DNA of 64,000 nt from the IMG/VR virus record IMGVR_UViG_3300035698_006348, positions 1 to 64,000 of that record; one strand, 5' to 3'. The stretch comes from a virus. Positions 5,237 to 61,565 of this stretch are shown one piece after another (the stretch's first letter is position 1; each line of letters opens with the position of its first letter). The translations under genes and the position numbers were made by a program. The notes below the pieces were generated by a model that did not search any database, was not told the origin of the DNA, and was given only the letters and a program-made list of their open reading frames with translations.

Positions 5237-6037
5237 ATGAATGCAAAAGGCATTTGGGTAAATAAAGAATACGAACTAACAGAAGAGGACTTAAAAAGTG
5301 CCGATTTTGCTATATGCAAATATGGTAGTTTTTTACACAAAAATGTACAAAAATGCTATGATAATGGTGTACCATTCATTTTATTCTATGAAAATGATCC
5401 AGAAACAATGGTCGAAATGGGGCTCAATCCAAACAGTTGGGGAGACGACCACAACAAATGTTTACTAGATATTGTAAATGGAGTACAGTCAGGTGGTGTG
5501 AATATAGCAGTAAATGGAATTATGGTTGATAGTTCTAAAGTTTATATGGATACAGGTGGTACAATTACTGCTCAATGGATTGTTCAAACGGGTAGACATC
5601 TGTTATCTAGAATTAGAAAACTCACTGGACTAAAAACTTTTCTATACATGAATCAAAATCCAATAGTAGCACACAGTGGCTCAATGGAATCTAGAGAAGC
5701 ATTGTTCGCTTACATAAATGAAAATGATGGAGTGTCTACTGCGACCTTTGTTGGGGGTCTAAATGAAGATGGCTATCCAAAAGATAGTGACTCACCATCC
5801 TTACCTTACGATGGTGGTAACGGTTGGAGATTCTGGTTATACAATGTAAATTCTAATGGAGTACTAGATGTGGTTTATTACAAACCAAAAGAGTTTCTAT
5901 ATGAAGTACTTTCATATAATCAAGTTCAAAGTGAAAAACCATTAGAAGAAGTACCACCACAAGGAAATTTAGATTTTATATCAAGACTTACGAAAGTTAT
6001 AGACATAGCAGCAGAAGAATGGCTAAAGTATAAATGA
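5237..6037 (+). CDS. GH25-like TIM-barrel protein, candidate endolysin
   Basis: 266 residues. The first 220 look like a degenerate GH25 (Cpl-1-type muramidase) barrel: K-G-I-W-V opening strand, F-A-I-C-K-Y-G followed by H-K-N-V-Q-K-C-Y-D-N-G-V-P-F (the helix and strand after beta 2), then G-I-M-V-D near residue 97, where GH25 enzymes place a catalytic Asp, and a late W-R-F-W-L-Y-N strand. The usual D-x-E pair is not clear, so activity is uncertain. Residues 225-266 form a charged linker and amphipathic helix. The gene sits after the tail genes and before two membrane proteins with a 4 bp ATGA overlap, the usual place for an endolysin. It could instead be a non-catalytic barrel. Confidence 0.5.
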   Translation: MNAKGIWVNKEYELTEEDLKSADFAICKYGSFLHKNVQKCYDNGVPFILFYENDPETMVEMGLNPNSWGDDHNKCLLDIVNGVQSGGVNIAVNGIMVDSSKVYMDTGGTITAQWIVQTGRHLLSRIRKLTGLKTFLYMNQNPIVAHSGSMESREALFAYINENDGVSTATFVGGLNEDGYPKDSDSPSLPYDGGNGWRFWLYNVNSNGVLDVVYYKPKEFLYEVLSYNQVQSEKPLEEVPPQGNLDFISRLTKVIDIAAEEWLKYK

Positions 6038-6642
6038 ATATAATTCTAGCCATCATAACCATAATATTATCAGGTATACTAGTCTATAAGGCATACGCAG
6101 TAAGGGACGTATCAATAATTGGTTCTGCTATTCCAAGATTATTACTGGGAGGATTTCTCTTATTCCCAGATTTAACTTCAAACACTAATCTAAATTTAAC
6201 ATTATTTATAATTATAATATTCGCTTCTGATTTAATAGTAAACACTCTAAGATGGGTATCTAAAAAAGGATTGACTTATGGATATCACAGAGCAGCAATA
6301 AAAACACTATTAGCAATAGAATCTCGTTATAAAGCAATTATAGAAAACACCATAGTAGGTATATATGTAATAGACTGTAAAGGTAACTTTCTATATATAA
6401 ATGATAGGGCTTTAGAATTATTTGGAATATCTGAAACTGAGTCCAACCATCTAACTATATTTTCTGTATTGAAAAATGGCAGTACTCTATTATCTCTAGT
6501 AGAAAAATGCGTAGCTGGAAAATTAGATGAAATAGTTTTATACACAGAAGCAATACTAGTAAATAAAAATATAATCGTAGTAGGCAAAACTTCTATAAAT
6601 GGCTCAACAACAATAACAGGTATTGTAATAGAGGGAGAATAA
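6034..6642 (+). CDS. Membrane-anchored PAS-domain protein in lysis cassette (holin-like position)
   Basis: 202 residues. Residues 1-72 contain three hydrophobic segments (about 2-22, 30-46 and 52-70), as in small holins. After a basic linker, residues 88-200 match a PAS sensor domain: E-S-R-Y-K-A-I-I-E-N, G-I-Y-V-I-D-x-x-G-N-F-L-Y-I-N, A-L-E-L-F-G-I, and a closing G-x-V-I-E-G-E strand. PAS domains sense redox state, oxygen, light or small ligands. No kinase, HD or GGDEF output domain follows, so the membrane part itself may be the output. It overlaps the candidate endolysin by 4 bp and is followed 3 bp later by another small membrane protein. Function in lysis timing is inference; the PAS match is clear. 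Confidence 0.75.
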   Translation: MNIILAIITIILSGILVYKAYAVRDVSIIGSAIPRLLLGGFLLFPDLTSNTNLNLTLFIIIIFASDLIVNTLRWVSKKGLTYGYHRAAIKTLLAIESRYKAIIENTIVGIYVIDCKGNFLYINDRALELFGISETESNHLTIFSVLKNGSTLLSLVEKCVAGKLDEIVLYTEAILVNKNIIVVGKTSINGSTTITGIVIEGE

Positions 6643-6909: not shown

Positions 6910-6972
6910 GATAGGAATAGAGAGCTAAAACGAAAAGAATAAGGAAAGCTAATTATTAAATTAGCTGTATAT

Positions 6973-7009
6973 CCCTAAAGGGCATTAATAGGCTCTTTAG
7001 GGGTTTTTT
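6973..7009 (+). terminator. Rho-independent terminator after lysis cassette
   Basis: An 11 bp stem (6973-6983 with 6992-7002, one G-T pair) with an 8 nt loop, followed by G and six T residues at 7004-7009. It ends the rightward structural and lysis transcript. Confidence 0.9.
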
Positions 7010-7476
7010 GTTTTTAGGTATATAACGAGACCTATTTCCATTCAAAGTCTCCAATTGGTCTTCCTACGAGGTCCATTTTCCTCCGATAAGGGTTCCAAGA
7101 AAATATTTTTAGAATCTGGAGAGAAAACGCAGAACCCAGTGGTTAAGAGTAACTATTCCTATAAGAAGGGGGGGGGAGTAACTTTCTCCAGCTATGGAGT
7201 AAGAATCGATAAGTCCAGGAGTCTTTCGATAAGCGATTTGGAAAAATAGGTTAGGAGTCTTTGGAAACCGATAAGCATTGATAAAACTACTTGAGGAGTC
7301 TTTGGGGTACAGTCCGTCTGCGACAGAGCTGTAATGCGACAATTTTTATCTGAATAGGGGGGGTACAATATTAGAGTTTCCTCATAATAGGAAATTGCTC
7401 CCCCCAAAACGCTGATTATATGAGATAATAGAGTTATCTCAGAGCTTCTTTTGAGTGTAGAAAAAGGAATTTATAA
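7010..7476. other. Gene-free, repeat-rich region (possible origin, packaging or control region)
   Basis: About 467 bp with no supportable gene. It holds three AGGAGTCTTT direct repeats (7217, 7253, 7294), four CGATAAG copies (7084, 7207, 7227, 7269), a run of nine G (7168-7176), and a nested hairpin in which seven G (7357-7363) can face six C (7400-7405) around a TTTCCT/AGGAAA stem (7377-7382 with 7389-7394). A further perfect 7 bp hairpin lies at 7422-7440. G and C homopolymers are very unusual in this AT-rich genome. Repeats clustered upstream of gene 7477 suggest protein binding sites, an origin or a packaging site. No convincing promoter was seen. Confidence 0.5.
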
Positions 7477-10083: not shown

Positions 10084-10283
10084 TGACAGATTTATCAGAA
10101 GAGACTATTCTTAGGTTACTTAGCTTTGGTGTTAATCAGAAAGCTGAGTTAGTAGAAGTAACCATTGAGAATGGGGATACTGTAATTCAGTTTAGACTGA
10201 AAGCCCCAGAGGTTCTTCCTGGAGTTATAATAGCTAAGAATGAGACCACTACTGTGGTTCTCATGGAGGATAAACATGGATGA
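10083..10283 (+). CDS. Unknown small protein
   Basis: 66 residues from ATG 10083 (one-base overlap with the previous stop; no other good start). Helix then beta hairpins, no Cys, no membrane span. Its stop overlaps the start of the next tiny membrane gene by 8 bp. I do not recognise it. Confidence 0.5.
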   Translation: MTDLSEETILRLLSFGVNQKAELVEVTIENGDTVIQFRLKAPEVLPGVIIAKNETTTVVLMEDKHG

Positions 10284-10413
10284 ATTGAACATAACCACAG
10301 CATGTGCTTTGGTGGTAAGTATAGTAATAATCTTATTAGGTTACTTTTGGATTGGGGTTAGTATGTTAGTAATTATTCCAATTCAAGTAGTATGGAAATG
10401 GAAAACAAAATGA
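10276..10413 (+). CDS. Tiny membrane protein 1 of a four-gene overlapping run
   Basis: 45 residues, with GGAGG upstream of ATG. One long hydrophobic segment (about residues 9-38) and a basic C-terminal W-K-W-K-T-K, so the C terminus is probably cytoplasmic. It overlaps the next gene by 4 bp (ATGA). Confidence 0.55.
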   Translation: MDELNITTACALVVSIVIILLGYFWIGVSMLVIIPIQVVWKWKTK

Positions 10414-10517
10414 ATAGAAAAGAAATAGTGACTGGACGTTTAATAACAATTATAATCCTATTATCATTCACTATTGGTGTAATAGTAGGAAGTACACTTT
10501 GGAGGTTATTCTCATGA
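10410..10517 (+). CDS. Tiny membrane protein 2 of the run
   Basis: 35 residues: short basic N terminus (N-R-K-E) then one hydrophobic helix (about residues 10-32). ATGA overlaps on both sides tie it to its neighbours, which supports translation despite its size. Confidence 0.5.
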   Translation: MNRKEIVTGRLITIIILLSFTIGVIVGSTLWRLFS

Positions 10518-10669
10518 CTAGCAAATATAGAAAAAATTTACGAAAACAAAGATGGAATAAAGTAGCAGAAATATTGGCATATCTATTTGTATGTCTATTA
10601 CTATTTACTTTTGGATTCCTATTATCATCAATCCTAGTACGGATTATGGTTAATGGGATGGTTCAATGA
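10514..10669 (+). CDS. Tiny membrane protein 3 of the run
   Basis: 51 residues. Residues 1-17 are strongly basic (K-Y-R-K-N-L-R-K-Q-R), then one hydrophobic segment of about 25 residues. Preceded by TGGAGG inside the previous gene and joined by ATGA overlaps on both sides. The K-Y-R-K motif recurs in the next protein, which suggests duplication. Confidence 0.55.
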   Translation: MTSKYRKNLRKQRWNKVAEILAYLFVCLLLFTFGFLLSSILVRIMVNGMVQ

Positions 10670-10785
10670 ACAACCACAAATATAGAAAGAAATTGTGGAC
10701 TTTACTTATCATAATATTATTTATGATACTTAGTTATATTATTGGATATTATATATCTGATTATATGTTTTGGATTGGAGTGTAA
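10666..10785 (+). CDS. Tiny membrane protein 4 of the run
   Basis: 39 residues: N-N-H-K-Y-R-K-K-L then a hydrophobic helix rich in Ile and Tyr. It shares the K-Y-R-K start with the previous protein. ATGA overlap upstream, next gene begins 1 bp after the stop. Confidence 0.5.
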   Translation: MNNHKYRKKLWTLLIIILFMILSYIIGYYISDYMFWIGV

Positions 10786-10786
10786 A

Positions 10787-11242
10787 ATGAGTGGAATACT
10801 TAAGAAAATTGAAGACATTGTAAAACCAGTTGGGCTTGCAAATGAGAAATTACGGGAAGCCAAGTCCTTTTTTGAAGATACAGAAGATACTTCAAAAGCC
10901 AAACTCAAAGACCTCATTGAAATGGGAGGTTTAGATGGAAGTACATGGAGAGCCTCATACGGAGGAAACACACTGAAAAGAACCAGTATAATCTACTTAC
11001 ACAGCGATTACCGCAGTCAAGCATTCTTGAAAAATTTTCCAAGAACACATTTGGGAATAGTTGACATTTACTCAAATTGGGAAGGCGAATTAATTATAAG
11101 AGGGTCAGTAGAAAACATTATAAAATTCACTAAGAACCATGGAATGTGCATTATTAATCTTAGAGTAGCAAAAACTGGCTTATTCTTTGATGTAGAACGA
11201 CCAATCCACTGTCCGAAGTTCTTTGAAGGTGATTGGTGTTAA
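10787..11242 (+). CDS. Unknown 151-residue protein
   Basis: The ATG at 10787 is chosen because TTGGAGTG lies just upstream; an earlier in-frame start at 10742 would sit inside the previous gene. Residues 1-45 are helical and charged, 46-151 a mixed alpha/beta domain with many aromatic residues and two late Cys. Soluble. I do not recognise the family. Confidence 0.6.
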   Translation: MSGILKKIEDIVKPVGLANEKLREAKSFFEDTEDTSKAKLKDLIEMGGLDGSTWRASYGGNTLKRTSIIYLHSDYRSQAFLKNFPRTHLGIVDIYSNWEGELIIRGSVENIIKFTKNHGMCIINLRVAKTGLFFDVERPIHCPKFFEGDWC

Positions 11243-11244
11243 TA

Positions 11245-11439
11245 ATGAATCTATTTCTTTTAGCATATGTTAGTATTGGGGTATCTTTTATGGTTACCAT
11301 AACTGTAGCAACTCTAAAAGGTACTAAACCCAATCTTTGGGTGATAATATCAAGTATAGTAGTTTGGTCACTTGCTGGCCTTACTTGGCCGATATGGGCA
11401 TTCGTAACAATGTTATACACAGTAAGCAACCATAGATAG
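11245..11439 (+). CDS. Two-span membrane protein, paralogue of next gene
   Basis: 64 residues from ATG 11245 (a TTG at 11233 overlaps the previous gene and is less likely). Two membrane segments (about residues 3-22 and 32-58) with a short basic loop. The second segment, V-V-W-S-L-A-G-L-T-W-P-I, matches L-V-W-A-L-I-G-T-L-W-P-I in the next protein, so they are tandem duplicates. Confidence 0.6.
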   Translation: MNLFLLAYVSIGVSFMVTITVATLKGTKPNLWVIISSIVVWSLAGLTWPIWAFVTMLYTVSNHR

Positions 11440-11449
11440 GAGGAATATA

Positions 11450-11671
11450 ATGAAGGTACTTATTGGAGTTTATCTAGTTGGATTTCTTATTTTTGTAATA
11501 AGAATGGTATTTTGGAGCATTACATATAATAATAAAACTGATGGTAATATTGATATTGGGCTACTAATATTTAGTGTGCTAGTTTGGGCACTTATTGGAA
11601 CTCTCTGGCCAATTGTTGTAATAGCAACTATGGCATATGGAATGGATAAACAGAATGATACAACTGGATAA
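11450..11671 (+). CDS. Two-span membrane protein, paralogue of previous gene
   Basis: 73 residues, ATAGGAGGAATATA ahead of ATG. Membrane segments at about residues 3-25 and 37-64 with a polar, Asn/Asp-rich loop. Shares the W-P-I-V motif of the second span with its neighbour. The 3' end overlaps the next gene by 17 bp from the preferred start there. Confidence 0.6.
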   Translation: MKVLIGVYLVGFLIFVIRMVFWSITYNNKTDGNIDIGLLIFSVLVWALIGTLWPIVVIATMAYGMDKQNDTTG

Positions 11672-12002
11672 TGGTATATCTGAGGAAGTCAACGTTCACG
11701 GCAGATATGATATAGGAAGTAAAAGAGTAACTGTGGTAATTAATGGTGAAAGTAAATTCTGTGGAGTGCCAAATATGTTATGGGCACCACTTGTGTATGA
11801 ATATATTATTTCATTGTTAAAATTTAGACAATTTGGCTATTTTGAAGATACAAGTAAGCTTATGGTATATGTGCGTAAACAAGTTAAAATGCAAAAAGAT
11901 ATGGATGATTTAAAATGCACCATGTTAATTGTAGAAGTTACTTTAGCCTGGTTCTACTTAGGTGAGGGCTTAAAGAGATTATGGAGGCATATAAGAAAAT
12001 GA
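11655..12002 (+). CDS. Unknown protein flanked by a 16 bp direct repeat
   Basis: 115 residues from ATG 11655 (121 from ATG 11637). The first 16 bases of this gene are repeated exactly at the start of the following gene (11999), which supports ATG 11655. The protein has an N-terminal beta part, a central helix with L-W-A-P-L-V-Y-E-Y-I, and a C-terminal hydrophobic helix (about 95-108) with a basic end that may associate with the membrane. Unknown function. Confidence 0.5.
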   Translation: MIQLDNGISEEVNVHGRYDIGSKRVTVVINGESKFCGVPNMLWAPLVYEYIISLLKFRQFGYFEDTSKLMVYVRKQVKMQKDMDDLKCTMLIVEVTLAWFYLGEGLKRLWRHIRK

Positions 12003-12265
12003 TACAACTGGATACTAATTGGATTGTGTCTGCTAAGACCCTAAATCCAAATACATTTTATTTAATGAGAGAGGGGCAAAATTTCCGTGTAGCTGTCCTA
12101 AATTTGCAAGGAGTTTTTGGAATTGTAATTTCTCCAAGCCAATTAGCGGCAGGAGAGACCATAAGTGCAATTAGTAAAATCTCTGGTATTTCTTCTATGA
12201 GAAAAATAGCCTCAAAACTGGAATGTAACAAACAAACCGCTCACCTGTTTGTGAGGAATGGATAA
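11999..12265 (+). CDS. Unknown small protein
   Basis: 88 residues from ATG 11999, about 11 bp after GGAGG; ATG 11981 would overlap that site. N-terminal residues M-I-Q-L-D are shared with the previous protein because of the 16 bp direct repeat. It is a beta-rich protein with a Ser/Ile-rich middle. No motif recognised. Confidence 0.5.
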   Translation: MIQLDTNWIVSAKTLNPNTFYLMREGQNFRVAVLNLQGVFGIVISPSQLAAGETISAISKISGISSMRKIASKLECNKQTAHLFVRNG

Positions 12266-12521
12266 TATAATGGATAAAAATAAACAATACGTTATAAGTG
12301 GGAAATATACATTCTTGTTAGATGGATTAGAGTTATCATTAGAATTTTACAATGATTACGATGTTAAACTCTGTGATTTACCAAGCGAAGAATGGGCTCA
12401 GAAAGCTGCGGATTATGCAGTAATTGTGCTAACTCTTGGGTATTGTGATAATATTGGAGACTTACAAAATGTAATGGTAACTGCTATCAAAGATGCCGCT
12501 GAACCAGAGGATTTGAAATGA
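12258..12521 (+). CDS. Unknown small acidic protein
   Basis: 87 residues (83 if ATG 12270 is used). Acidic, with two beta strands then helices; two Cys without a metal-site pattern. Overlaps the previous gene by 8 bp and the next by 4 bp. Confidence 0.55.
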   Translation: MDNIMDKNKQYVISGKYTFLLDGLELSLEFYNDYDVKLCDLPSEEWAQKAADYAVIVLTLGYCDNIGDLQNVMVTAIKDAAEPEDLK

Positions 12522-13039
12522 GGGTCTCCAGGATTTATCCCACGTTATGTAAGTGTGGTAAGCCAGCCTTCTATAATATAGTGGAAGAAAACAAAGCAGC
12601 CAGACAAGTATGTGGTAAATGTCTGACCAATAGGGAAAGAAAACTGGTAGAGAAGGCAATCCCAGTAAATGAATATACAAAGATTGGAACCATCTTCGGT
12701 TGCAGAGAGGTAAATTCTGGGGATGTTACCCAAGTTATGGAAAGAATGACCAAATTTGAAAAGTCTCGTGGAGAGAACTCAAAAGTAGTTTCCGAAATTA
12801 GAAGGGAGAAGAAATCCAAAGATGAATTACTATATGGGGAATTGTCAATGCAAGCCAGCATTTACTTTGGTTTGGTTGGAATTGTATATGAAAAACCACC
12901 AATCGTTGTACTAAATGGTAGGAATTTTAGCTTAATATGTATTATGGGAAAATACGTATTATGCGATGTAAAAAACAGACCAATCTTTTATTCTAATGAG
13001 CATGGAAAAAAGGTCGGCTATGTGAAAGGAGCTAAGTAA
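12518..13039 (+). CDS. Zn-ribbon protein of unknown function
   Basis: 173 residues. The N terminus has C-K-C-G (about residue 11) and C-G-K-C (about 32), a four-Cys zinc site, followed by a basic helix (R-E-R-K-L-V-E-K), a charged middle and a beta-rich C-terminal half. Starts by ATGA overlap. Last gene of this operon, 53 bp before a terminator. Perhaps a transcription or translation modulator, but that is a guess. Confidence 0.6.
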   Translation: MRVSRIYPTLCKCGKPAFYNIVEENKAARQVCGKCLTNRERKLVEKAIPVNEYTKIGTIFGCREVNSGDVTQVMERMTKFEKSRGENSKVVSEIRREKKSKDELLYGELSMQASIYFGLVGIVYEKPPIVVLNGRNFSLICIMGKYVLCDVKNRPIFYSNEHGKKVGYVKGAK

Positions 13040-13092
13040 CCCATGAAATAATATAGATATATATGATAAAATATATAATTATGATAAAATTG

Positions 13093-13129
13093 GAGCCATG
13101 TCGGTACCGAGATACGGCTCTTATTTTTT
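13093..13129 (+). terminator. Rho-independent terminator ending small-gene operon
   Basis: GAGCC (13093-13097) pairs with GGCTC (13116-13120), with an imperfect inner stem around TCGGTACCGA, followed by TTATTTTTTA. The 95 bp between it and the next gene shows no clear promoter. Confidence 0.75.
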
Positions 13130-13224
13130 ATGTATTTGGTTATAACCCACGTTGAGCTTACAGCCCACGGAATTGGTGAGTATGTGAGCAAAAATTATGT
13201 GGTGTATATAAAGGAGGAATAACG

Positions 13225-13404
13225 ATGAATAAGAAGAAACGAATGATATATGCAATTGTGGTTGTACTTGGTCTATTTTCTGGTATCTCTGGTCTTATCT
13301 GGTTAAATCTAGCCTATCCAGAAATAGGTATAATTCTCTTTTTTGGTATTTTAATAGGATGTGCAATATATTTTACATATGAGCTTTTTGGTATGATTTT
13401 CTAA
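13225..13404 (+). CDS. Two-span membrane protein
   Basis: 59 residues, with AAAGGAGG 8 bp before ATG. Basic N terminus (N-K-K-K-R) then two hydrophobic helices (about residues 8-29 and 34-57). First gene of the long operon that runs to 27980. Function unknown. Confidence 0.6.
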   Translation: MNKKKRMIYAIVVVLGLFSGISGLIWLNLAYPEIGIILFFGILIGCAIYFTYELFGMIF

Positions 13405-28049: not shown

Positions 28050-30353
28050 TCATTTATTCAGTATCTGGAAAAACTTAGATTTATCTCTGTAAATTGTGCC
28101 TCCTTTTAACTCTGACTTCCACATATAAATATACATAGCAAATACTTCATCTACTGTAGTATTAGTTGGACAATTAATTGTTTTACTAATACTATTGGTA
28201 ATATACTCTTGCCATGCTGATTGCATGTTTACATGGTCTTTCCAATCAAGATCATGAGCAGTAATAAATACTTCCTTAAGCTTATCTGGAACTCCATCTA
28301 TATCTTGTAGTGAGCCTTTAGCTATAATTTCTTTCTTTATTTCCTCTAAATTTTCAACCCCATATTCTTCTAGTTTTCTAAATAGAATTGGGTTTACTTC
28401 TACAATCTTATCCTTTACAGAATTACCAACACCCTCTGTTATATATCTAGTGTAAGCTAAAGCAAAGAATGGTTCAATACCAGAATTTACTCCAGCTAGT
28501 AAAGCAATACTTCCTGTTGGTGCTATTGATGTAACTGATACATTCCGTAATGGAAAGTCAGTACGTTCAATAGGTTTATTTATTCCAGATAGTGGGGAAT
28601 TTAATACTCTATTTACTGATGAGAAGTCAATCTGCTCCGCATCATAATCAGGAAATGTTCCGCGTTCTTCTGCAAGTACATTTGACTCCAATATAGCAAA
28701 GAATGAAATAAACCATCCTAAATAATTTGCGAGAGTTATAGCATCTTTGGAATTATATGGCATCTCCAGCTCTGCTAACAAATCAGCAAACCCCATAACA
28801 CCTACACCAAGCCTACGCAATGCTTTGGATGTAGTGTTGATTTCATCAATCTGGGTCTCCGAGATCGTCTGAACATTATCAAGAAATCTTACGGACTTTC
28901 TAACTAAAAACTCTAAGAACTCTAAATTGAGTGCCTTCGTGTTAAAATCATATACACTATGTAAGTTAATACTACCTAAGCAACATGATTCATGTGGTAA
29001 TAGGGGGACTTCACCGCATGGGTTGGTCGTATCTATATCTCCCTTATACTTCCTAACTATATTATCTTTGTTTACTCTATCTAAGAATAGAATTCCTGGA
29101 TCTCCAGACTCCCAAGCCCGTAAAGCAATATTATATAAAATAGCTCTGGCTGGTACAGTTTTTACTACCTTCTTATCAACAACAGATAATAAATTCCAAT
29201 TCTTATCCTCAATAACTGCTTCCATAAAATCATCTGTAATTCCAATAGAGACATTGAAATGAGTTAGTTGATTGTTCTGTAATACATGAGATAAATCTTC
29301 AATGTTTCCAGCATCCTTAGAATACGCCTGGAATTCACTAATCAGGCGTTTATTTTTTTCAGTTAATGTAGATTTATAATCTATAAATTCAATAACATCT
29401 GGATGAGTAATATTCATAATACCCATCTGTGCTCCTCTTCTAGAAGCCTGTTGTATTACTTCTCCTGTATGGTCAAACAAGGTCATAAAAGATAATGGAC
29501 CAGAATTATGTGAAATAAATCCATTTGCAATAAAATTATGAAACGGCTTTTTCATCGCTAAATCATACACCTTCTCAATACCAACATATTCAATGGAAAT
29601 AATCTTATCAAAGTATATTTCCTTGTGTAATCTTGGATTTCCTACTGCAATTAAGTCTCCAACAGAGAATTGTTTTGTTTCTTGCCAATCATGTTTAGAA
29701 TTTAAAAACCTATGATTACTTGTCGCCTTTATTGAATATCCGTCTTCTGTGGTTATTTTATAGACCTTTTCCTCTCCATTGTAAATAATATCCACTATAC
29801 TATTTAGACCCAATGAATTATTTTCTTTCATACACCTAATAAGAGGAAAAACCTTGCCTCTAGACCTTCTATCAAATAATGTGGAAAGAGTTACTTCCTC
29901 TTTTTGTTTCCATCTTGCACTATCTTTATATACAACTGTGTCACCAGTCAAACAAGCCTTACCTCCAGTAGTTTTTATCTCAGCACCCTTTTCTCTAATA
30001 CGAGAGAAATTATATCCTACTCCCCCTCCCCAAGCAAACACTTCAGCAGACTTACCTAAAGCATCATATAATGATTTTCGTGAGTCCTCTATTGGAATCA
30101 CAAAGCAGTTCATAAGATTCTTTATACCAGTACCAGCATTAGCTATAACTCTCCCACCTGGAAGAAAAGCATTATTACTAATCATATTGAAGAAGTCTCC
30201 AGCTAACTTGGAGACTTCTTCTTTTGTTTTACCATATGAAAGTTCTGCATTAGCCACTGTTGAACTTACTCTCCAGCAAGCCTCTTCCCATGTTTCTTTT
30301 GGATCCACAGCATACTTCATCTTGAATATTCTGTTTGCTACATCATTTAACAT
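28050..30353 (-). CDS. nrdJ: Class II (B12-dependent) ribonucleoside-diphosphate reductase, mini-intein inside, C-terminal redox tail missing
   Basis: 767 residues including a 150-residue intein (134-283). Extein motifs: G-G-R-V-I-A-N-A-G-T and M-N-C-F-V-I-P (redox Cys, residue 83), G-P-L-S-F-M, S-R-R-G-A-Q-M-G, N-P-C-G-E-V-P (radical Cys and Glu) and C-C-L-G-S-I-N-L, then A-P-T-G-S-I-A-L and N-C-P-T-N. This is the NrdJ pattern; it makes dNDPs with adenosylcobalamin and needs no radical partner subunit. The protein ends at G-G-T-I-Y-R-D, where normal NrdJ continues to a C-terminal Cys-rich redox tail. A matching tail is encoded at 48842-48970. Last gene of the leftward operon. Confidence 0.93.
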   Translation of the reverse strand: MLNDVANRIFKMKYAVDPKETWEEACWRVSSTVANAELSYGKTKEEVSKLAGDFFNMISNNAFLPGGRVIANAGTGIKNLMNCFVIPIEDSRKSLYDALGKSAEVFAWGGGVGYNFSRIREKGAEIKTTGGKACLTGDTVVYKDSARWKQKEEVTLSTLFDRRSRGKVFPLIRCMKENNSLGLNSIVDIIYNGEEKVYKITTEDGYSIKATSNHRFLNSKHDWQETKQFSVGDLIAVGNPRLHKEIYFDKIISIEYVGIEKVYDLAMKKPFHNFIANGFISHNSGPLSFMTLFDHTGEVIQQASRRGAQMGIMNITHPDVIEFIDYKSTLTEKNKRLISEFQAYSKDAGNIEDLSHVLQNNQLTHFNVSIGITDDFMEAVIEDKNWNLLSVVDKKVVKTVPARAILYNIALRAWESGDPGILFLDRVNKDNIVRKYKGDIDTTNPCGEVPLLPHESCCLGSINLHSVYDFNTKALNLEFLEFLVRKSVRFLDNVQTISETQIDEINTTSKALRRLGVGVMGFADLLAELEMPYNSKDAITLANYLGWFISFFAILESNVLAEERGTFPDYDAEQIDFSSVNRVLNSPLSGINKPIERTDFPLRNVSVTSIAPTGSIALLAGVNSGIEPFFALAYTRYITEGVGNSVKDKIVEVNPILFRKLEEYGVENLEEIKKEIIAKGSLQDIDGVPDKLKEVFITAHDLDWKDHVNMQSAWQEYITNSISKTINCPTNTTVDEVFAMYIYMWKSELKGGTIYRDKSKFFQILNK
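29505..29954 (-). mobile_element. Mini-intein in NrdJ (no endonuclease)
   Basis: Residues 134-283 of the NrdJ reading frame. It begins with Cys (C-L-T-G-D-T block A), has T-S-N-H-R-F (block B His) and ends F-I-A-N-G-F-I-S-H-N, followed by Ser as the +1 residue. Removing it joins T-G-G-K-A to S-G-P-L-S-F-M, an unbroken conserved RNR block. At 150 residues there is no room for a homing endonuclease, so it is fixed or degenerate but should still splice. Confidence 0.95.
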
Positions 30354-57906: not shown

Positions 57907-58824
57907 ATGAATAAAAAACTTTTAGTAGGAATAGGTACTTTCGGGCTATTGGAATATACAAAACTAGCAATTAAATCAATTAAAGATACAGTAAAGAAAA
58001 CAGACTATGATATATTACTTATAGTTGGTAAGAATGGGGATGTTGAAACAATAAATTATGCAAAGGCAAATGGACTAAAACATATAGTCCATACAACTAA
58101 TAAAGGATTTCCGGCCTCTATAAATGATATGTATGATTATGCTTGGAAAGATAATGCTTATGAATATTTGCTTATTATGGGAAATGATGTTATAGCTTAT
58201 CCATATGCTGTTGATTCAATGGTAGAGGTAGCTGATACCACATTATATGATTGGGTATGCTCAAGAGAATTTAGTGTGCAAGCTCTTGTAAAAGCATTTC
58301 CAGTAACTTCCTCCTATTTTACAGGAAAAGCTTTCAAGTATAAATTTGGAAGTGGCCCATGTTGGGAATACTTTGATAAGTATAAAGAAAAGATTACAGT
58401 TAGCACCTCTGGTATGTCTGATACTCATAACTTAGGGTTATATAAGAAATCAATTTTTGATAAGGTTGGATATATTGATGTAAATTTCTATCCAGCCTAC
58501 TTTGAAGATAATGACTTTGCAAGGCGGTCTATGTTAGCAAATGTGAAATCTTGTACAGTTGATAATGCTTTTTATTTCCATTTCTGGAGTAGAGTTATAA
58601 ACGAAGGCTCTGGAGGATCAACTCCAAAATATTTCTCAAATAATCAGCAGTATTATATACAGAAATGGGGTGGACTCTTTACAAAAGAATTATATGATTT
58701 ACCATTTAATGGAAATGGGCATACCTTAGATGGAGACATATTTTTAAAATCAGAAATAAAAATAACGTCTAGAGAGGATGAACTCAATATAGCTAAATAT
58801 TGGACACATCTTGGGAGTGGTTAA
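57907..58824 (+). CDS. Family 2-like glycosyltransferase (GT-A)
   Basis: 305 residues, AAAGGTAT before ATG. N-terminal G-I-G-T-F, T-N-K-G-F-P-A-S-I-N-D (about 63-73), I-M-G-N-D-V (about 94, GND in place of DxD), Y-F-E-D-N-D-F-A-R-R (about 199, catalytic ED). Transfers sugar to the growing glycan or to a virion protein. Its stop overlaps the terminase start by one base (TAATG), which couples glycan and packaging genes. Confidence 0.87.
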   Translation: MNKKLLVGIGTFGLLEYTKLAIKSIKDTVKKTDYDILLIVGKNGDVETINYAKANGLKHIVHTTNKGFPASINDMYDYAWKDNAYEYLLIMGNDVIAYPYAVDSMVEVADTTLYDWVCSREFSVQALVKAFPVTSSYFTGKAFKYKFGSGPCWEYFDKYKEKITVSTSGMSDTHNLGLYKKSIFDKVGYIDVNFYPAYFEDNDFARRSMLANVKSCTVDNAFYFHFWSRVINEGSGGSTPKYFSNNQQYYIQKWGGLFTKELYDLPFNGNGHTLDGDIFLKSEIKITSREDELNIAKYWTHLGSG

Positions 58825-61565
58825 TGGCACTAATTGAGAATGTGAATCAAGAGGATTTAATTCTTTATGAAATATTAAAGCATCCAGTATTATCTGGTGA
58901 GTTCCTTCAAAACTTAGATAGACTCGAACATGAAGATATTTTTAAGTTTGAGTGGTATCAGGTGGATTTTTTAGCTGATTTTGCTAAGCAAGTGTCTATT
59001 GCTTGTGGAAGGGCTGTTGGGAAGACAGTTAGTCTAACTAATATGACTATATGGTTACTTATAAATAAGATTTTCCCAGAAGATTATATAGTATATACAG
59101 TTCCAAGTAAGGTTCATTTAGATCCAGTTTTTACATCTCTTACTAGAATGTTTAGAAGTAACTCTTTATTAAAGAATTTTTTACAGGCAAAGAAAGGGAT
59201 AAATGGTTCTGATTTTACAATAAACCTTTTAAATGGCACAACACTAATGTGTCGTATAGCTGGCCAATCTGGAACTGGGGCTAATGTTATTGGTTTACAT
59301 ACACCATTTATAATTCTTGATGAGTGTATTGTTGGTACTCAGCATGTTGCTATGCCAACTTGTAATAAAACAGCAGATAATGTAAAAGTTGGAGATTCCA
59401 TATTATCATGGAATGGTGAATCTATTGAAGAGGATAGAGTTATAAATGTTCGCCGTACCAAAAGAGAGCAAAAAGTTTTAGAGGTTGTATATGATTCTGG
59501 GAAAATTAGAGTAGGAGAAAATCATAAAATATATACAGATAATGGATATGTTAAAGCCTCAGAGTTAGTAGTAGGTGATAATATATACTATACTGAAACT
59601 ACTAGAAGTAATCTGCCATGGACGAAGAAAGATTATAAAATTTTGGAAAAGAATGTTCAAGTTGGAATTCGTGTAAAAGAAGTAGCAAAAATACTAAATC
59701 GTTCTGAGCAGTCTGTTTTTAGTAAAATAGAGAAAAAATATACTTCTACCCACAATTTATTTTATTCTAAGCCCCTAACAGAAAAGCAATTAGATATAAT
59801 TAGGGGATCATTATTAGGAGATGGGTCTACAGCAATATACACAAAAACTGCATCATACTCTACTAATCATAGTTTAAAACAAAAAGAGTACGTTGATTGG
59901 TTATATACTGAATTGAAATCAATTACTAGATGTAAACCACGAATTTATAAAAATGGTGGCTATGGTGAATATAACTATGCCTTTTCAACGCTAGGTCATC
60001 CAGAGATTTTTGATATTGTTTCAAAATTATACATAAATGGTAAAAAGACAGTTACACGAGAGTATTTAGATAAATTATCAAAATTAGCATTGGCTGTATG
60101 GTGGATGGATGATGGATCAAATAGTGGTGTATTGTCTTCACATTCTTTCTCAAAAGAAGAAAATGAAATTGTAATTGAGTGGATGAAGGATACTTTTTCA
60201 ATAAATTGTAAATTATATAAAGATAAAAAAAGAAACTTATATTTTATAATATTTCCTGCAAAATCTAAAAGAGAACTAAATAAGCTTTTAGCCCCCTATA
60301 TGCATAAGGCTATGAAATATAAAGTAGGTATAGGGAAATATAATAATGAATATACCTTACCAAATATTGAACTTATTGGTAAAGGCGAAGATAATAAATC
60401 ATTAGTAAAAAAAGTAGTACTTAATATTAGAGAGGTAAATACAAGGGCTGCTTATCTTTATAACTTTGAAGTTGAAAAGAATCATAACTATTTTGTAAAT
60501 GGTATTCTTACTAAAAATTCTGGTTACTACCCCTGGGGCACATGGTTAGAGTTACAACCAACACGTAATACTTGGACACCTGGAAGTAGGATTATTACAT
60601 CAGGAGTTCCAACAGGTTTACGGGAATCAAATGTTCTGTATAATACAGACATGGTAGATGGGGGATATATGAAACATAGAATAAGTGCATATGATAACCC
60701 ACGATTTACAAAAGAAGACGAAGAAAATGCCATAGCTCAATATGGTGGAAAAGATGGTGAGGATTTTACTCACTTTATTATGGGTAGGCATGGTAAACCA
60801 TTATATTCATTATTTGACAGATCCTTATTTAAGGTTGAACCCTATCCAGTATACAAACTGAAGATAAATGGTCTAAAAATGACAGGGGATATTGCTGAGT
60901 ATCTTACAAGAATAAGAACAATTCCAAATACTGATGAAGGTGTTGAAACAATTATTGGAATTGACTTAGGTTATACTGAACCGACAGCTATTGTTGTAAT
61001 GTATAAAAATAAGAAAGGCAGATTTAAATTTCATTGTAGAATAGAATTGAAGAAAGTTCCATATCCTATACAAGAGATTATAATAGATTTACTAGATACA
61101 AAGTTTGCTCCTTTTAAAATAGGAATTGATAAAGGTAGTTCAGGTATTTCAGTAATCCAGAACCTAACTAGTAATTTAAAATATGGTCATAAAAATTATG
61201 AAGATATTATTGTACCAGTTGATTTCTCATCTTCAATAGTAATTGGTTTAGATGCAGATGGTGCAGAAATAAAATCAAAGACAAAGCCATTCTCTACTTC
61301 AATTTTACAAGATTACTCAAATAATCATAAAATAGTTTATTCGTCAACAGATTTGGAAATGATAACTGAACTTGAACGAATGTCATATACTAAAACCCCA
61401 TCTGGTGATATTGTATATAAAACTTTAACCCAAAGAGGTGGGACACGGGGAGAAGATCACTTTACTGCTGCTATGCTTTGTTTTTCATTATCAAATTATT
61501 TGTATACAGATTATATAAATATGCGAAGAACTAGAAAATTAGCAGCCCCAACATGGATACGTTAA
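58824..61565 (+). CDS. terL: Terminase large subunit interrupted by an intein
   Basis: 913 residues from ATG 58824 (GGGAGTGG upstream), of which 168-565 are an intein. ATPase: C-G-R-A-V-G-K-T (61-68, Walker A with Arg), F-I-I-L-D-E (162-167, Walker B, the intein follows the Glu), and S-G-V-P-T-G (motif III/coupling). RNase H-like nuclease: G-I-D-L-G-Y-T-E-P (about 711, first Asp), I-G-I-D-K-G-S-S-G (second Asp), D-H-F-T-A-A (late Asp). It cuts and pumps DNA into proheads. Spliced length is about 515 residues, normal for TerL. Confidence 0.95.
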   Translation: MALIENVNQEDLILYEILKHPVLSGEFLQNLDRLEHEDIFKFEWYQVDFLADFAKQVSIACGRAVGKTVSLTNMTIWLLINKIFPEDYIVYTVPSKVHLDPVFTSLTRMFRSNSLLKNFLQAKKGINGSDFTINLLNGTTLMCRIAGQSGTGANVIGLHTPFIILDECIVGTQHVAMPTCNKTADNVKVGDSILSWNGESIEEDRVINVRRTKREQKVLEVVYDSGKIRVGENHKIYTDNGYVKASELVVGDNIYYTETTRSNLPWTKKDYKILEKNVQVGIRVKEVAKILNRSEQSVFSKIEKKYTSTHNLFYSKPLTEKQLDIIRGSLLGDGSTAIYTKTASYSTNHSLKQKEYVDWLYTELKSITRCKPRIYKNGGYGEYNYAFSTLGHPEIFDIVSKLYINGKKTVTREYLDKLSKLALAVWWMDDGSNSGVLSSHSFSKEENEIVIEWMKDTFSINCKLYKDKKRNLYFIIFPAKSKRELNKLLAPYMHKAMKYKVGIGKYNNEYTLPNIELIGKGEDNKSLVKKVVLNIREVNTRAAYLYNFEVEKNHNYFVNGILTKNSGYYPWGTWLELQPTRNTWTPGSRIITSGVPTGLRESNVLYNTDMVDGGYMKHRISAYDNPRFTKEDEENAIAQYGGKDGEDFTHFIMGRHGKPLYSLFDRSLFKVEPYPVYKLKINGLKMTGDIAEYLTRIRTIPNTDEGVETIIGIDLGYTEPTAIVVMYKNKKGRFKFHCRIELKKVPYPIQEIIIDLLDTKFAPFKIGIDKGSSGISVIQNLTSNLKYGHKNYEDIIVPVDFSSSIVIGLDADGAEIKSKTKPFSTSILQDYSNNHKIVYSSTDLEMITELERMSYTKTPSGDIVYKTLTQRGGTRGEDHFTAAMLCFSLSNYLYTDYINMRRTRKLAAPTWIR
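59325..60518 (+). mobile_element. Large intein with LAGLIDADG endonuclease in terminase Walker B
   Basis: 398 residues (168-565 of the reading frame). Block A C-I-V-G-T-Q; block B G-E-N-H-K-I-Y; two LAGLIDADG-type motifs, R-G-S-L-L-G-D-G-S and L-A-V-W-W-M-D-D-G-S; C-terminal N-H-N-Y-F-V-N-G-I-L-T-K-N, then Ser +1. The penultimate residue is Lys instead of the usual His. Removal joins L-D-E to S-G-Y, restoring the Walker B helix. Confidence 0.95.

Follow-up and report, generated by a model that had tools for sequence, protein, structure and literature searches.

What sets the moment of holin-triggered lysis is a long-standing open question. To our knowledge, the known regulation of holins acts through other proteins (antiholins) or through the membrane potential. 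In the F1 mycobacteriophages, lysis is governed jointly by LysF1a, which has several transmembrane (TM) segments, and LysF1b, a 1-TM protein with N-out/C-in topology and a charged helix (PMC13056207). The locus described here encodes a phage late protein in which three N-terminal hydrophobic segments are followed by a PAS domain. From its sequence this is probably a holin-like lysis protein that carries its own cytosolic PAS domain, and this domain is predicted to control assembly and thereby the timing of lysis. The fusion of a sensor domain to a protein in the holin slot was found in three divergent phages and is missing from siblings that share the cassette, which provides a natural plus/minus comparison. 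Nothing relevant on phage PAS proteins or PAS-holins was found in the open-licence PMC papers that were searched, and in this literature a conserved holin-like protein with a PAS domain is apparently undescribed.

The gene, its product and its neighbours

The window (the whole stretch of 64,000 nucleotides that was analysed) is part of an 86,463-base phage record with an exact direct terminal repeat of 111 bp. Because this repeat joins the ends of the record, the late genes at 58–86 kb run on into positions 1–7 kb of the window. A total of 31 non-overlapping late-strand ORFs were retained in this 35.6 kb late region, and TM segments were predicted in two of them: the PAS protein and the 87-residue protein encoded directly after it (Table 1). 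The ATG of the PAS gene overlaps the stop codon of the upstream gene (ATGA), and its own stop codon lies 3 nt before the ATG of the next gene.

Table 1. Features of the PAS locus (window coordinates unless residues are given).
Feature	Position	Strand	Remarks
Upstream gene, 266 aa protein	5237..6037	+	Endolysin candidate of the preliminary description; start–stop overlap with the PAS gene
PAS-tailed membrane protein gene	6034..6642	+	202 aa
Three-helix membrane part (predicted)	6034..6258	+	Homologue alignment, charges
Linker helix (predicted)	about aa 76–98
PAS domain	6316..6639	+	About aa 95–200; profile matches
1-TM partner, 87 aa	6646..6909	+	N-terminal TM, then a coiled-coil-like tail of 64 residues, charged and helical
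Intrinsic-terminator-like hairpin with T run	6971..7012	+	3' of the last late gene; one found versus 1.2 expected in shuffles, weak alone

The preliminary description had recognized three hydrophobic segments and a terminal PAS domain, and both were borne out. The hydrophobic segments lie at about residues 3–21, 26–44 and 54–72, and the PAS domain was matched by PF00989 (E = 1.7e-8, 34.9 bits, curated cut-off 22.6), TIGR00229 (E = 3.1e-9, 37.0 bits, cut-off 22.9) and PF13188 (E = 4.6e-8). For a single protein, matches of this strength are well beyond chance. The chain ends with this domain and no output domain lies beyond it. A single-sequence AlphaFold2 model of low confidence (pLDDT 47) placed three N-terminal helices before a beta-beta-alpha...beta-beta-beta pattern, and its Foldseek matches in the PDB were nearly all PAS domains (FixL, DOS, WalK, CitA). 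A profile built from three homologues matched the solved PAS domains of phytochrome A (3.4e-7), CitA (4e-4) and WalK (8e-4), these matches being confined to profile positions 90–170 in its C-terminal half; no non-PAS fold emerged. Outside phages, the nearest database sequences were sensor kinases. Hydropathy and positive-inside charge counts favoured an N-out/C-in topology of the membrane part in all three homologues, and on account of this charge pattern the PAS domain is predicted to be cytosolic. No holin-family match of the window protein was found in Pfam, NCBIfam or PHROGs.

The product of the upstream gene contains no recognizable endolysin domain, and the assignment in the preliminary description was given up. 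The actual endolysin is a GH25-SH3 enzyme at 84,972–85,988 of the record (PF08239, 3e-7; 94.8% in hhalign to the sibling GH25 enzymes), which precedes the PAS gene by ∼6.4 kb when counted through the terminal repeat. Assignment of the upstream protein as a divergent GH25 enzyme was likewise rejected: PF01183 was not matched and the hhalign score fell below those of the top shuffled controls. The upstream gene has a G+C content of 34.5% compared with 46–48% in the preceding tail genes, and no relatives of its product were found in Pfam, PHROG, NCBIfam or the PDB. The 87-residue protein on the other side is predicted to be N-out/C-in.

Several further features of the window were recorded. An endonuclease-like gene among the tail genes (1099–2031; 32% G+C) encodes repeated zinc-knuckle motifs and a DUF1064-like C-terminus, belongs with phrog_1271 (HNH endonuclease) and resembles a mobile endonuclease. 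By eye, the large terminase (58800–61565) and a ribonucleotide-reductase-like protein (28050–30353) looked intein-interrupted. In the early region, several tiny ORFs (56–73 aa) with hydrophobic stretches at 10240–13404 are possible host-takeover membrane proteins.

Homologues, siblings and the lysis cassette

Scans of viral sequences with the PAS protein alone, with the upstream neighbour alone and with the DNA polymerase yielded no relatives carrying the gene. Searching phage and plasmid collections with tblastn returned generic PAS domains and no homologue, a DNA pattern for the PAS motif gave mostly chance matches in viral contigs, and a two-sequence profile scan of genome contigs found none. 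Relatives were reached via the terminase, which identified a large environmental phage group at 53–63% identity; many of these records are fragments, and absence of the PAS gene elsewhere in the group says little. The sole terminase relative in bacterial genome contigs was a 44 kb contig (L241, DYKD01000020.1) from a metagenome bin of a sulfidic cave that bears the label Brevinema andersonii, a weak host hint and possibly a binned phage contig.

Among the records of this group that were searched, the PAS protein was found in two further independent lineages, G029 and G084 (TerL 54–56% identical), as full-length homologues of 25–28% identity which each have a PF00989 match of their own. The homologue in G029 (80.8 kb) is 27% identical over its full length (E = 4.7e-10) and that in G084 is 25% identical (profile E = 3.5e-21; PF00989, 1.3e-6); the gene in G083 is identical to that in G084. 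The G084 protein also showed a weak match (0.017) to the holin PHROG phrog_5308. Residues invariant in the three homologues are G30, A32-I33-P34-R35, L37 and G40 in helix 2 and S65-D66 and I68 in helix 3. In the PAS part overall identity is low, and conservation is concentrated at the last strand, in which N-G-x-x-T-I-T-G is kept in all three.

In 3/3 lineages the PAS gene is directly followed by the gene of a small 1-TM protein whose tail is charged and helical, and the window and G029 versions are 33% identical (E = 3e-7). In G029 the order is PAS protein, 1-TM protein, GH25 endolysin (PF01183, 2.8e-32). In G084 the 1-TM protein has 148 residues and the GH25 gene instead adjoins TerL; a separate 87-residue three-helix protein, encoded two genes upstream, could be the holin there.

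PAS-less siblings were found in four lineages (G031/G032, G041, G060 and G082). The slot is taken in these by a plain three-helix protein of 106–119 aa, followed by a 1-TM/coiled-coil protein and then by GH25. The sibling proteins share their charge pattern with the membrane part of the PAS type, and comparison of the two gave no significant homology (in twelve comparisons the best z was 3.1, for G029 versus G060). Since such homology could not be demonstrated, the PAS type may equally have replaced the holin or arisen when a PAS domain was joined to an older one. The PAS type occupies the holin slot of a holin/1-TM partner/endolysin cassette.

The placement in a lysis cassette made in the preliminary description was supported by conservation of the protein in G029 and G084 and by the slot that it shares with the sibling three-helix proteins; the adjacent endolysin did not hold. 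The homologues did not turn out to lie apart from lysis cassettes: in G029 GH25 is two genes downstream and the paired 1-TM gene was retained in both, while the endolysin of G084 is located elsewhere.

Proposed function and alternatives

Its position, helix number and topology, together with the lack of another candidate, make the PAS protein a likely holin or holin regulator. In the proposed mechanism the three helices would insert N-out/C-in, like those of a class I holin, and helix 3 would run through the linker helix into the PAS domain. Coupling of PAS domains to membrane helices usually takes this form, with a membrane helix leading through a linker helix into the domain. The PAS domain would act by dimerization, via a bound small molecule or through contacts made with the 1-TM partner's charged cytosolic tail, and would either keep the helices inactive or promote their assembly. 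By controlling in this way how the membrane part oligomerizes, it would set the time of membrane permeabilization and of the exit of the GH25 endolysin. We further suggest, tentatively and along the lines of the preliminary description, that the domain may respond to redox, energy status or a metabolite in the infected cell, gating hole formation directly. If this is true, lysis would be timed by host physiology and not by accumulation alone; through the fusion, a connection between the state of the cell and the timing of lysis can be put to a direct test.

The PAS domain might instead be a dimerization or scaffold module for holin assembly which senses nothing, a reading that we regard as somewhat unlikely. 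PAS domains commonly dimerize; residues of haem, flavin or LOV type were not seen to be conserved across the three homologous PAS domains, nor was any His, Cys or Trp, and their low identity, with conservation mainly in the N-G-x-x-TITG strand, also speaks for a scaffold. However, pocket residues are usually poorly conserved in true sensors as well, and a plain coiled coil would suffice for the purpose. That the PAS protein is an antiholin or timing regulator, with the 1-TM partner or another small protein forming the hole, is unlikely. The constant pairing with a 1-TM protein and the extra three-helix protein near the PAS gene in G084 fit such a role, as does the severe lysis defect seen in F1 mycobacteriophages on loss of LysF1b and not of LysF1a (PMC13056207). 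Against it, no other multi-TM protein is predicted in the late region of the window phage, and the PAS-less siblings retain a three-helix protein in the equivalent slot.

A membrane signalling or host-takeover protein, acting for instance in superinfection exclusion or by interference with host sensor kinases and lying near the lysis genes by chance of location, seems improbable. PAS domains are typical of host sensor kinases, this gene lies where the late region ends, a place in which accessory genes also collect, and the upstream gene has no assigned function; yet the pairing with a 1-TM protein of lysis type has been kept in three lineages, in siblings the slot is filled by a plain three-helix protein and the late region offers no alternative holin candidate. 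That the gene is a functionless piece of a host sensor kinase, recently captured and decaying, is scarcely credible: it would agree with sensor kinases being the nearest non-phage sequences, but the open reading frame is intact with its start–stop overlap, and the architecture is common to three phages at 25–28% identity with motifs kept in both halves.

Comparison with known systems

The low-confidence PAS model also matched proteins of Cellulophaga phages in which one TM segment and a helix are combined with a possible PAS-like domain: phi38:2 gp11 (L260:2911-3546), the gene of which overlaps the endolysin gene, phi18:3 gp090 (L259:17103-17618), two genes before the endolysin, and phi19:1 gp108 (L258:6203-6922), five genes before a lysozyme. 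They belong to phrog_10199/phrog_31932, of unknown function; Pfam and hhalign gave no support for a PAS domain in them, the matches coming from Foldseek with the weak model. As a lead, membrane-tethered PAS-like modules may recur in phage lysis regions.

The holin-like PAS protein resembles bacterial PAS sensor kinases (WalK, CitA, FixL, AtoS) in its succession of membrane helices, linker helix and cytosolic PAS domain, and differs from them in being a phage late gene product with no kinase or other output domain. With the T4 holin T and the antiholins RI and RIII it would share the principle, proposed here, that lysis timing is set by a soluble domain that is part of the holin or sits on it; T, however, has one TM segment and a periplasmic domain in place of three TM segments and a predicted cytosolic PAS domain. 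Like class I holins of the lambda S105 type, the protein has three hydrophobic helices with predicted N-out/C-in topology and is encoded by a late gene, the sole multi-TM gene of the late region. It is about twice as long as these holins and has a folded PAS domain where they end in a short charged tail; neither sequence similarity to them nor a dual start in the PAS gene was detected. As in the F1 mycobacteriophages, a multi-TM gene is followed by one for an N-out/C-in 1-TM protein whose cytosolic tail is long, charged and helical, a pair which there stands beside the endolysin gene; LysF1a differs in having two TM segments, N-in/C-in topology and no PAS domain (PMC13056207). By analogy, LysF1a/LysF1b is the closest working precedent for a lysis pair made of a multi-TM and a 1-TM protein.
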